Positions 5,294-37,028 of a stretch of 37,028 nt of DNA are shown here, in pieces (the first letter of the stretch is position 1; the number at the start of each line of letters is the position of its first letter). The position numbers were made by a program, and so were the translations under genes. The DNA comes from Spirochaetales bacterium (GTDB lineage: Bacteria; Spirochaetota; Spirochaetia; DSM-2461): NCBI GenBank assembly GCA_028532905.1, contig JAQQAM010000188.1:1-37028 (forward strand), written 5' to 3'. Below the pieces are notes generated by a model. It made no database searches. It saw nothing but the letters and a program-made list of their open reading frames with translations, and was not told the DNA's origin.

Positions 5294-5467
5294 TAAAATT
5301 TCCTTTTTATTGAGCTCATATACTCTTTTATAAAAGGATACGCCCCTAGATGCAAGATAAAAGAACCGACTATCAGGAAACAGTGATTCTCCCCTCCCTC
5401 TCCATATGGACTTCATTTTATGAACAAAATACTCTGCCAATATTAGTGTCAGGAGATTTTTCGGACT

Positions 5468-33138: not shown

Positions 33139-34167
33139 TTACTTGAACCCCGCAGGCAGGTTAGGCTGAGCCATCACTGCCTCGACAAAAGCCAGGATAT
33201 TCTCAAGAGACACATCCCCTTCTACAGCATGGGAGGGGGACAGGATATATCCGCCCTCAGCGCCCAGTTCCAGAAGGTGTTTTGTCTCATTCCTTACCTC
33301 TTCTACCGTACCGAAGGGGAGGGTTTTTTGAGTAGAGAGGCCTCCCCAGAAGGAGAGCCGGCCCCGATACTCTTTGATAAGCGCATCAATATCCATGACT
33401 TCAGGCTGAAAGGGATTGAAACACTTCAGCCCGATCTCAACCAGATCGGGAAATACTTCATCCACATCGCCGCAGGAGTGAATCAGAATATATTTCCCCT
33501 GATCCAGAACAGCTTTATACATTCTTTTCAGGTGGGGATAAATCATTTCCCGCCAGAGATCAGGTCCCATGATCAATCCATGCTGCTGTCCCCAGTCATC
33601 ACCGAAGTAGATGGCATCTATATCATAGGTACAGGCTTTCTCAATCTGGGCAATATTGTAATCCACAATAGACCCGAATAAGTTATTAACAAAATCAGGG
33701 TTGTCATAAAAGTCCATCAGAAGATTCTCAACCCCTCTGAGAGACCAGGCCCTCTCATACAGGGAGAACCCGATACAGAAGACTCTGAAGCGGTCAGGAT
33801 CAGCCTCAATCCTGGCGGGAATATCATTAAAAAAACGCTCATCCCGGGGATCGGGAAAGGTGTAATCCTCAAGAGTAGGCTTTTTCAAGACCACCTCTTC
33901 GGGAAGACCAATGTCTTTTTCCACCGACCGGTCCCAGACAACCCCAAATACATCCCTGAACCGTCCGGCTCCCAGGTCATCAAAAAAACCAACGGAACTT
34001 CCCAGCGATGTGAAGTGATTCCCCAGAGCCTTCTCCCACTGGGGACCATAGTGCTTTTCCAGTTTCTCAATCGCCTCACAGGTAAAGCTGAAGGACCAGG
34101 GAACATAAGGCGGTTTCCTGCCGTCCAGCACTGTTTTAACAACATCCCTTTTGGACATAGTGTTCAT
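33139..34167 (-). CDS. URO-D-superfamily protein, MtaA/CmuA-like (copy A)
   Basis: A 342-residue TIM-barrel protein related to uroporphyrinogen decarboxylase, but not HemE: the HemE N-terminal RQAGR motif is missing. It has instead HSCGD (H230, C232), the His-x-Cys zinc motif of corrinoid or thiol methyltransferases such as MtaA, MtbA and CmuA. The usual third cysteine near residue 310 is replaced by SPSHAVEGD, so H313 may serve. It is about 88% identical to the copy at 35690. The ATG at 34167 is preceded by a TGAGGTAA ribosome site that is the same in both copies. It lies 48 bp behind the Rieske-desaturase gene and is probably co-transcribed with it. Confidence 0.82.
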   Translation of the reverse strand: MNTMSKRDVVKTVLDGRKPPYVPWSFSFTCEAIEKLEKHYGPQWEKALGNHFTSLGSSVGFFDDLGAGRFRDVFGVVWDRSVEKDIGLPEEVVLKKPTLEDYTFPDPRDERFFNDIPARIEADPDRFRVFCIGFSLYERAWSLRGVENLLMDFYDNPDFVNNLFGSIVDYNIAQIEKACTYDIDAIYFGDDWGQQHGLIMGPDLWREMIYPHLKRMYKAVLDQGKYILIHSCGDVDEVFPDLVEIGLKCFNPFQPEVMDIDALIKEYRGRLSFWGGLSTQKTLPFGTVEEVRNETKHLLELGAEGGYILSPSHAVEGDVSLENILAFVEAVMAQPNLPAGFK

Positions 34168-34215
34168 AGATTTACCTCATATTTATTGTTGTTCAACCCC
34201 GAAGGACTGTCAGTT

Positions 34216-35562
34216 TCAGATTTTAATAAACACACTCCCCTTCTCGGCCTTGGCGGGATAGGTTTTCAAGTCCGTCTGAGCCGGTCTGGTCAGAGCCTTT
34301 CCACTGAGAATATCAAAACGCGCATTGTGTTTGGGGCAGGCAACCCGGCAGTTGTCTTCCACAACACCGTTGCCCAGGGGAGCCTGTTCATGGGTACACA
34401 GACCTTCTGTGGCATAATAGCCCTTTTCGGCCAGATTAAAGACGGCGTAGCTTTCTCCCTTGTATTCAAAGGGAATCACATCCATTTCATCAATGTCCCC
34501 TTCGGCACAGACCCGTATCCAGTCCCCCTCGGCAACAGCTTCCCGGTTCTCAGAGCTTCTGTCAGAGGAAGCCTTTTCTGAAGCTTCCGGAAGGGGACGC
34601 TCAATAAAATAGGAAGTGTCCTTTTTCTGTCTGAACAGTGCGGGAATCATCTCTTTATAAACCTGCCACATCCCCTTATAGGGCACAGGTTCCTGACTGA
34701 CAATTTTTTTGTGCAGCTTGGGCAGGGCATGAAAGGGCATTAAGGGATACATATGATGCTCAATATGGTACTGCATATTCATAAAGAGGAAGGCAAAAAA
34801 CGGATTAACCTTAACGGTTCTCGAATTCCGTCTGTGATCCCAGACATCCTCTTCCAGTCCCGCATGCTGCTGGAGGATAAACATCCACTGTAGAGGGGCG
34901 CCGTAAAAACGGGGCAGACCGTAAAACAGGACAGGCAGCCAGGATCCGAGATAAAGAGAGAGGGCGATGGGAATAATCTGGGTGATCATACTGAGCCGGG
35001 CCCAGAAGAACATCTTTTTATACTCCTCCTCGGGTACACAGATTTTGGCTTCTTTGCTGACAATCCCCAGGCTGTGGAGAATCAGTATGCGGATGTAATG
35101 GATACCCTGCTGAATATTGAAGAAATTTATTATCTGGGGGAAAAACTTCGGAGGTCTGGGAACGGTGATCTCCAGATCGACTCCGTTAATAACCGTATAG
35201 GAGTGGTGTCTCACATGAGACCAGTGGGTAAACACAATATCCCTCTGCTGCATGGCAGTGGACCAGAAGTGGAGAAGATCATTGAGCCAGGGGGTTCTGA
35301 AAACAGTACCGTGGGAACTCTCATGCCAGCGGGCATCACAGGCGGAATAAAGTACTCCGTACAGAAAAAAGGCCGGTATGACCCAGGCCGTACCAAGGCT
35401 CATAAATGCCAGATATCCTGTGGCTCCCAGCAGGAGAACCCACAGCCCCACCATATACAGAGCGTGATAATTATCCTTTTTCATCAGGCCTTTCAGCTCT
35501 TTTCTGTCAATCTCCGGTGTGTACCACTCCTGTTCTTCAACCAGGGTTTTCGGATCTACCAT
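34216..35562 (-). CDS. Membrane diiron desaturase/hydroxylase fused to a Rieske [2Fe-2S] domain
   Basis: A 448-residue fusion. The N-terminal 300 residues are a membrane fatty-acid-desaturase-type domain with histidine boxes HESSH (80-84), HVRHH (116-120) and HIEHH (266-270), plus H233 in QQHAGLEEDVWDHR, and at least four hydrophobic helices. After a polar linker (320-345), residues 346-448 form a Rieske ferredoxin with ligands C389, H391, C409 and H412 (CTH and CPKH). The Rieske domain probably feeds electrons to the diiron site for oxygen-dependent hydroxylation or desaturation, as cytochrome b5 domains do in other desaturases. The substrate is unknown. The ATG follows AAGGAG. It lies between two URO-D paralogues. 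Confidence 0.87.
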   Translation of the reverse strand: MVDPKTLVEEQEWYTPEIDRKELKGLMKKDNYHALYMVGLWVLLLGATGYLAFMSLGTAWVIPAFFLYGVLYSACDARWHESSHGTVFRTPWLNDLLHFWSTAMQQRDIVFTHWSHVRHHSYTVINGVDLEITVPRPPKFFPQIINFFNIQQGIHYIRILILHSLGIVSKEAKICVPEEEYKKMFFWARLSMITQIIPIALSLYLGSWLPVLFYGLPRFYGAPLQWMFILQQHAGLEEDVWDHRRNSRTVKVNPFFAFLFMNMQYHIEHHMYPLMPFHALPKLHKKIVSQEPVPYKGMWQVYKEMIPALFRQKKDTSYFIERPLPEASEKASSDRSSENREAVAEGDWIRVCAEGDIDEMDVIPFEYKGESYAVFNLAEKGYYATEGLCTHEQAPLGNGVVEDNCRVACPKHNARFDILSGKALTRPAQTDLKTYPAKAEKGSVFIKI

Positions 35563-35647
35563 TTTCTAACTCCTTTTCTCAATCTGTTCTGCCCGGCGGC
35601 AGGTCTGAATCTATCTCATACCCTCTTAAACCGCTCATATTTGCATG

Positions 35648-35681
35648 AAAAAAATTGCCCTGCTCTTCCGGGAACAGGGCA
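35648..35681 (-). terminator. Terminator after URO-D copy B
   Basis: TGCCCTG (35656-35662) pairs with CAGGGCA (35675-35681), with an inner TTCC/GGAA helix. On the minus strand a run of T follows (35648-35654). It separates copy B from the desaturase gene, which then needs its own promoter or read-through. Confidence 0.8.
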
Positions 35682-35689
35682 GGACACTG

Positions 35690-36718
35690 TTATTTAAAAT
35701 CCGCAGGAAGGTTGGGCTGAGCCTTAACTTCCTCAACAAATGCCAGAATATTTTCGAGGGACACATCCCCTTCCACAGCATGGGAGGGAGACAGAATATA
35801 GCTGCCGTCGGCTCCCATTTCCAGAAGGTGTTTTGTCTCTTTCCGTACGTCCTCTTCTGTTCCGAAGGGAAGGGTTTTCTGAGTGGAAAGGCCGCCCCAG
35901 AAGGAGAGCCGTCCCCGGTACTCTTTGATCAGCTCATCAATATCCATAACCTCGGGCTGGAAGGGATTGAAACACTTGAGTCCGATTTCCACCAGATCGG
36001 GGAAGACCTCATCCACATCGCCGCAGGAGTGAATCAGAATATATTTCCCCTGGTCCAGAACGGCCTTGTACATCCTCTTCAGATGGGGAAAAATCATTTC
36101 CCGCCAGAGATCGGGTCCCATAATCAGACCGTACTGCTGGCCCCAGTCATCTCCGAAGTAGATGGCGTCTATGTCGTAGGTACAGGCTTTTTCTATTTGG
36201 GCTATATTGTAGTCAACGATGGCTCCGAAAAGTTCATTGACAAAATCAGGGTTGTCATAGAAGTCCATCAGAAGATTCTCGATACCCCTGAGAGACCAGG
36301 CTCTTTCATACAGGGAAAAGCCGATACAGAAGACTCTGAAACGGTCAGGATCTGCCTCAATTTTGGAAGGAATATCATCAAAAAAGCGGTGATCATGGGG
36401 ATCGGGAAATGTGTATCCTTCCAGGCTTGGTTCTTTAAGAACCACTTCTTCGGGAAGACCGATGTCTTTTTCCACAGTTCTGTCCCAGACAACCCCGAAC
36501 AGGTCTTTGAAGCGGCTGCCCCCCAGGTCATCAAAAAAACCGATGTCGCTGCCCAGCTCGGTGTAGTGATTGCCCAGTTCTTTCTCCCACTGGGGGCCGA
36601 AATGTTTCTCCAGTTTATCAATGGCCTCATGGGTGAAGCGGAAAGACCAGGGAACATAGGGAGGTTTTTTGCCGTCCAGAACGGTTTTTACAACATCCCT
36701 TTTGGTTATAGTACTCAT
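35690..36718 (-). CDS. URO-D-superfamily protein, MtaA/CmuA-like (copy B)
   Basis: A 342-residue paralogue of the protein at 33139 with the same motifs: HSCGD at 230-234, GLKCFNPFQPEV and SPSHAVEGDV. I count 41 differences between the copies, most of them in the first 120 residues. The middle and C-terminal barrel, including the whole metal-binding region, is nearly unchanged, so function is under strong selection in both. Its leader contains a possible three-way-junction RNA that covers the ribosome site. It lies directly downstream of an AraC-type gene on the same strand and has its own terminator. As for copy A, HemE activity is unlikely and methyl transfer is inferred. Confidence 0.82.
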   Translation of the reverse strand: MSTITKRDVVKTVLDGKKPPYVPWSFRFTHEAIDKLEKHFGPQWEKELGNHYTELGSDIGFFDDLGGSRFKDLFGVVWDRTVEKDIGLPEEVVLKEPSLEGYTFPDPHDHRFFDDIPSKIEADPDRFRVFCIGFSLYERAWSLRGIENLLMDFYDNPDFVNELFGAIVDYNIAQIEKACTYDIDAIYFGDDWGQQYGLIMGPDLWREMIFPHLKRMYKAVLDQGKYILIHSCGDVDEVFPDLVEIGLKCFNPFQPEVMDIDELIKEYRGRLSFWGGLSTQKTLPFGTEEDVRKETKHLLEMGADGSYILSPSHAVEGDVSLENILAFVEEVKAQPNLPADFK

Positions 36719-36725
36719 TGGATTA

Positions 36726-36805
36726 CCTCATAAACAGTTTTCAGCAGTCCCGGAAGACTGTCTGTAAACAGCATATCCCCTGTTAAAAGGATGCGGTTTA
36801 TGAGG
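36726..36805 (-). promoter_or_regulatory. Structured leader of URO-D copy B that sequesters its ribosome site
   Basis: On the minus strand CCTCATAAAC (36796-36805) is a perfect 10-bp complement of GTTTATGAGG (36726-36735), which contains the GAGG ribosome site 7 nt before the ATG. Between the arms two more hairpins fit: AACAG/CTGTT, and CAG-A-CAGTC/GACTGCTG with a 6-nt loop. The result is a compact three-way junction of about 80 nt. It starts 12 nt after the AraC stop codon. As DNA, the same repeats could be an operator pair. Confidence 0.55.
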
Positions 36806-36817
36806 AAAATGCTGAAT

Positions 36818-36931
36818 TTATGGAAATTCCTGCTGTTTTTTGTACTTATTGGGAGAGAGACCGCATACCGATTTGAACTGTTTGGAGAAGTAAAGGGGGT
36901 CTTTATACCCCAGATCCGCCGCTACAGACTG
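36818..36931 (-). CDS. AraC-family regulator, C-terminal fragment (cut by contig end)
   Basis: The last 37 residues of an AraC/XylS regulator. The second helix-turn-helix is clear: VAADLGYKDPLYFSKQFK followed by GLSPNKYKK, the family signature. The stop codon is at 36818-36820. The gene runs off the contig: adapter sequence begins at 36932, so nothing upstream of residue Q in the fragment is genomic. As the nearest regulator on the same strand, it is a candidate controller of the URO-D and Rieske-desaturase genes. AraC proteins of this kind usually respond to small molecules. Confidence 0.88.
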   Translation of the reverse strand, partial: QSVAADLGYKDPLYFSKQFKSVCGLSPNKYKKQQEFP

Positions 36932-37028
36932 AGATCGTAATAGCACACGTATTAACTCCAGTCACTCTCGAGAATCTAGTATGACCTCGTGGTGATGAAG
37001 GGTGGGGGGGGGTGGGGGGGGGGGGGGG
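36932..37028. other. Contig-end artefact: Illumina adapter read-through and poly-G
   Basis: From 36932 the sequence matches the TruSeq read-2 adapter (AGATCGGAAGAGCACACG and onwards) at 30 of 34 positions, the four mismatches all being G or C changed to T or A. An 8-nt index-like word (36966-36973) follows, then ATCTAGTATG, one base different from the P7 segment ATCTCGTATG. The end is poly-G, typical of two-colour chemistry after the fragment ends. This stretch is not genomic. Confidence 0.93.

Follow-up and report, generated by a model that had tools for sequence, protein, structure and literature searches.

A predicted RNA fold over the ribosome site of one of two URO-D paralogues in a Spirochaetales genome

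The stretch of DNA analysed here (the window, 37,028 nucleotides) comprises contig C188 of a Spirochaetales genome (5.0 Mb, 296 contigs) in its entirety. Near its end, in the gap between an AraC-type regulator gene and a gene of the URO-D superfamily (copy B), the RNA is predicted to form a three-way junction, the closing helix of which covers the ribosome site of the downstream gene. This raises the question of whether the fold controls the translation of copy B, and by what agent, or whether it is a product of chance.

Gene context of copy B

Three features, all on the minus strand, define the locus (designations of the L010 type refer to the loci used for comparison):

36818..36931, minus strand: 3' end of the AraC-type regulator gene (HTH_AraC; Pfam PF00165, E 1.4e-7; tblastn to L010, L012 and L013)
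35690..36718, minus strand: URO-D superfamily gene copy B, 342 aa (Pfam PF01208, E 9.9e-25)
35656..35681, minus strand: intrinsic-terminator-like hairpin with a T run, 3' of copy B (sequence scan)

The AraC gene terminates with a TAA codon (36820-36818, minus strand), and a gap of 99 nt separates it from the ATG of copy B at 36718. The matches of copy B to MtaA/CmuA are weak and fall under the curated cut-offs. In minus-strand order, the AraC end and copy B are followed by the terminator-like hairpin, which suggests that the transcript may end at 35681-35656, and then by a desaturase/Rieske fusion gene and a second URO-D gene, copy A. A consensus scan of the araC-copy B gap for sigma-70-like promoters found none. 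The two URO-D paralogues flank the fatty-acid-desaturase/Rieske fusion gene in the region 33139-36718, all on the same strand. They are 88% identical in protein and 83% in DNA, with 57% identity at fourfold sites.

The 5' part of the AraC gene is absent, as the contig ends in adapter sequence, which starts at 36932. The segment 36932-37028 consists of a corrupted Illumina TruSeq-type adapter read followed by poly-G. The match at 36932-36965 comprises 30 of 34 bases (the best of 2,000 shuffles reached 21). This terminal segment of 97 bases is an assembly artefact of sequencing adapter and accounts for the truncation of the AraC gene.

The nearest orthologues of copy B are found in L010 (77% identity), L011 (76%), L012 (72%) and L013 (71%). 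In L010, L012 and L013 the URO-D gene is immediately preceded by an AraC gene in the same orientation, so that the AraC-URO-D gene order is, judging from these sequences, old. The shared order and strand also suggest that the two genes constitute one operon. Close URO-D homologues are scattered in the phylum, occurring in 6 of 393 genomes at E 1e-100, while AraC-linked URO-D genes occur in three spirochaetes, which suggests that an AraC-URO-D cassette has been transferred.

The junction and its expected frequency

The elements of the fold, in the order in which they are transcribed, are as follows:

36796..36805, minus strand: 5' arm of the closing helix P0 (CCUCAUAAAC; RNAfold and exact sequence match)
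36771..36794, minus strand: hairpin P1, an apical stem with an AACA loop (RNAfold MFE and centroid)
36737..36769, minus strand: hairpin P2 with a UCCG (UNCG-type) loop (RNAfold MFE and centroid)
36726..36735, minus strand: 3' arm of P0 (GUUUAUGAGG), containing the copy B GAGG at 36729-36726 (RNAfold, exact match and accessibility)

The preliminary description of this locus reported a perfect 10-bp helix pairing the sequence after the AraC stop codon with the copy B ribosome site and enclosing two further hairpins. Both observations hold. Both arms match exactly as described, and neither is repeated within the window (CCTCATAAAC at 36726-36735 and GTTTATGAGG at 36796-36805), and their combination with a 40-70 nt spacer has a single occurrence in the 5.0-Mb genome. 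The latter result led us to reject a dispersed repeat (REP/MITE-like palindrome). On the minus strand, the 5' arm of P0 begins 12 nt past the AraC stop codon, the helix contains no mismatches, and the GAGG in its 3' arm lies 7 nt ahead of the copy B ATG. The three-way junction, with P1 and P2 enclosed by P0, is both the MFE and the centroid structure predicted by RNAfold, with -31.0 kcal/mol for the leader (z -3.9; none of 200 shuffles as good), and the 80-nt element by itself reaches a z of -5.9. For the four SD bases the predicted pairing probability is 1.0, and the cost of freeing them is predicted to be 11.7 kcal/mol. The SD would thus be paired in a stable fold, as expected of an RBS-sequestering element.

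In the comparison of 27 gene leaders of the window, the copy B leader had the lowest z (-4.5), the runner-up having -2.7. Its energy was attained by 16 of 12,000 dinucleotide shuffles, and when the SD was held fixed, 15 of 12,000 shuffles had the SD covered by a perfect helix of 10 bp or longer. The control set comprised 266 leaders with an SD-like motif, taken from the loci of relatives; three of them had a z of -4.5 or lower and two an SD helix of at least 10 bp. The fold is therefore unusual per gene, at about 0.1% by shuffling and about 1% among the 266 real leaders (one leader in 100 to 800). Given that a window of this kind holds about 30 leaders, it is notable, but neither decisive nor extraordinary. 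As a separate observation, the control set includes a leader from L065 (a Pirellulales MAG; gene starting at 5400 on the given locus strand), in which a perfect 15-bp helix lies over the SD-like motif (z -4.9).

These frequencies bear directly on one alternative, i.e. that the arms of P0 became complementary by chance as the intergenic sequence drifted; the helix may then reduce copy B translation to some extent without having been selected for regulation. The per-leader chance has to be seen against roughly 30 leaders of the window and thousands of the genome. Moreover, the initial ~25 nt of the leader are similar to the terminal part of the AraC coding sequence of L010, which is longer, and have the look of drift in sequence that ceased to be coding recently, and the fold is absent from every relative examined (see below). 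On the other hand, none of the other window leaders compared folds as strongly, P0 is placed precisely over the SD, and it lacks the mismatches by which drift would erode it. Selection for the P0 pairing is not proven, and we regard chance as a distinctly possible, if not quite probable, explanation.

Distribution of the fold

The leaders of L010, L012 and L013 contain no junction and no excess of structure over shuffles (z -0.2 to +0.3). The araC-URO-D gap of L010 is short, at about 40 nt. In the window, the region of the 5' arm (TTCCTCATAAACC) is similar to the corresponding sequence of L010 (TTCCTCAATAGACC), whereas the 3' arm has no match there, and L010 would for this reason keep only CCUC/GAGG of the P0 pairing. 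Upstream of copy A, homology to the copy B leader ends at about -47, the sequence further upstream being desaturase coding sequence; the junction is not formed and the leader is unstructured (z +0.7 to +0.9). The absence of the fold in orthologues with the same gene order and in copy A speaks against a masking role. The junction was also absent in all 48 other leaders examined, for which the mean z was -0.13.

A covariance search among the leaders of homologous URO-D genes had been proposed as a check of the fold. Its outcome is more negative than a lack of compensatory changes, as none of the homologous leaders examined has the fold at all, and hence none offers covariation in the helices. 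A covariance model of the junction (R1) recovered the query alone from its own genome; the 296 further genomes of the class and the fetched loci gave no match. There was likewise no match in viral contigs. Closer relatives were sought in the family, order, class and phylum and in the families of L010 and L040, and only already known genomes were found. A 23-nt DNA match in the family member G012 was dismissed as chance, since it adjoins an unrelated gene and lies downstream of it.

These results weigh upon the idea of a ligand-binding translational riboswitch of an undescribed class controlling copy B. In its favor are the three-way junction, the location of the SD in the helix that closes it, and an alternative fold with which it is mutually exclusive (see below). 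However, the window contains no gathering-level Rfam match, and at E up to 10 only chance snoRNA/U6 matches were obtained, on the opposite strand; a known riboswitch or other RNA family is rejected on these grounds. The aptamers of known riboswitches are broadly conserved. In this case, apart from the unrelated L040 hairpin described below, neither copy A nor the 48 other leaders have the fold, and a new riboswitch class, which implies an aptamer conserved at more than one locus, is hard to reconcile with a model whose only match across 297 genomes of the class is the query. There is also no indication of a ligand. The results lend no support to a ligand riboswitch or a new RNA class, and we consider this reading highly improbable. 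Of the earlier designation as a riboswitch-like element hiding the ribosome site, the predicted masking of the SD is retained and the ligand-sensing part is not.

One part of the junction that can be drawn in both paralogues is the apical stem of P2, which bears a UCCG loop in copy B and a UUCG loop in copy A, and all three differences within the stem retain pairing. This would be consistent with a protein or small RNA that binds the leader, e.g. at P2 with its UNCG loop, and tips the leader toward the masking fold or the early fold described below. However, three pair-keeping changes, being transitions, are about a one-in-eight chance event, the 6-bp stem folded alone has -5.5 kcal/mol in copy B and -2.5 kcal/mol in copy A, P2 is not the MFE structure of copy A, and it is absent in the orthologues. 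We see very little probability in such a binder.

A very strong single hairpin covers the GGAGG of a URO-D homologue (66% identical) in another spirochaete (L040:3934-3995; z -4.3 to -5.5). It is situated between divergent araC and URO-D genes. As a different, single hairpin between divergent genes, it was rejected as a relative of the copy B fold.

The inverted repeat might also act at the DNA level, as an operator or looping site for the neighboring AraC regulator or another dimeric protein, the folding of the RNA being incidental. A perfect 10-bp inverted repeat adjoining a regulator gene fits this proposal, as does the inverted repeat between araC and URO-D in L040. However, 60 bp is a long spacing for a single dimer, the arm pair occurs only once in the genome, and AraC sites are usually direct repeats. 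Furthermore, an operator would have no need of the folded interior, and folding is stronger in the sense than in the antisense strand (z -4.1 versus -2.0). We consider an operator unlikely.

Possible opening of the fold and comparison with known systems

On the basis of the structure predictions, translational masking of copy B is plausible, and we tentatively classify the element as an RBS-sequestering intergenic fold restricted to the lineage, a functionless fold being nearly as likely. Our preferred explanation, offered with a little less than even confidence, is that a lineage-specific mRNA fold in the araC-copy B gap may mask the copy B ribosome site and would be opened, if at all, by translating ribosomes, those leaving the AraC gene being one option. 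The AraC-URO-D order shared with L010, L012 and L013, the terminator-like hairpin beyond copy B and the negative promoter scan of the gap are in its favor. Two further features of the leader (minus strand) are relevant to how this might occur:

36715..36774, minus strand: small ORF of 19 codons (MLFTDSLPGLLKTVYEVIQ, then stop) with AGGGG ahead, its TGA overlapping the copy B ATG (ATGA) (translation)
36769..36814, minus strand: competing early fold, with CAGCAU (36814-36809) paired to AUGCUG (36774-36769) and UCCUC (36806-36802) paired to GGGGA (36780-36776) (prefix folding)

In the finished RNA, P0 would hide the copy B ribosome site and, according to the energy prediction, independent initiation would be hardly possible, making copy B translation reliant on ribosomes able to open the fold. 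A ribosome initiating at the 19-codon ORF inside the junction is the simplest candidate. The ORF starts in P1 and crosses P2 and the 3' arm of P0; a ribosome reading it could strip both of the latter, stop at the UGA overlapping the copy B AUG and then restart. In the model, the cost of freeing the SD falls from 11.7 to 4.7 kcal/mol with a ribosome on the small-ORF start and to 8.6 kcal/mol with a terminating AraC ribosome. Some observations speak against this route. The ribosome site of the small ORF is itself largely paired in P1 (0.55-0.99) and lies close to its own ATG.

The small ORF itself is not statistically unusual, as overlapping ORFs of a similar kind are present in 21 of the 266 control leaders (8%). 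Its frame is shared by copies A and B, and because 8 residue changes stand against 2 silent ones in 16 codons, the comparison gives no sign of constraint on a peptide.

Prefix folding indicates that the 5' arm would first take part in the early fold during transcription (-12 kcal/mol, z -2.6; 2 of 200 shuffles as good). This weaker structure, in which the CCUC of the 5' arm is engaged and P0 is thereby excluded, could keep the ribosome site open temporarily. As it must open before P0 can form, the predicted leader is, at least formally, bistable. A stronger version of this idea is a true switch between the early anti-sequestor and the late P0 sequestor, in which translation of the 19-codon ORF or ribosomes leaving araC would decide the expression of copy B, and not of copy A, in a new, narrowly distributed leader. 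We think this rather unlikely.

In the preferred explanation, i.e. ribosome-dependent opening of a masking fold, the two near-identical enzyme copies would differ in translation, because the fold is confined to this lineage and to copy B. Should the masking be real, translational control of one copy sets apart two paralogous enzymes that are 88% identical, and the locus provides a further case of small-ORF or coupling control from beyond the enterobacteria. If it is not, the locus is a calibrated case of a perfect 10-bp helix lying over a ribosome site by chance in roughly 1 leader per 100 to 1,000, and shows the need to check conservation before a riboswitch is called.

The arrangement can be compared with three known systems. 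One is mgtQ of Salmonella, located between mgtC and mgtB, where an intergenic small ORF frees a sequestered RBS, as tested experimentally (PMC8092293). Both leaders lie in an intergenic region of an operon (putative in the case of copy B), place the downstream RBS in a stem-loop, have mutually exclusive alternative stems and carry a small ORF overlapping the structure. However, mgtQ has 8 codons, including ribosome-destabilising acidic ones (PMC8092293), whereas the putative copy B leader ORF has 19 codons and ends with ATGA on the start codon. The likeness is one of arrangement, and we claim no sequence relation.

In translationally coupled gene pairs, the downstream RBS likewise lies in a helix that the upstream ribosome must open. 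Unlike in such pairs, the AraC stop codon is located 100 nt upstream of copy B, a ribosome terminating there would extend no further than the edge of the 5' arm, and AraC translation contributes little to opening in the model (8.6 versus 11.7 kcal/mol). Finally, the junction topology, the masked SD and the alternative pairing are shared with translational riboswitches that have the SD in the closing helix; these differ from the copy B fold in possessing a conserved aptamer, evidence of a ligand, an Rfam match and further examples.
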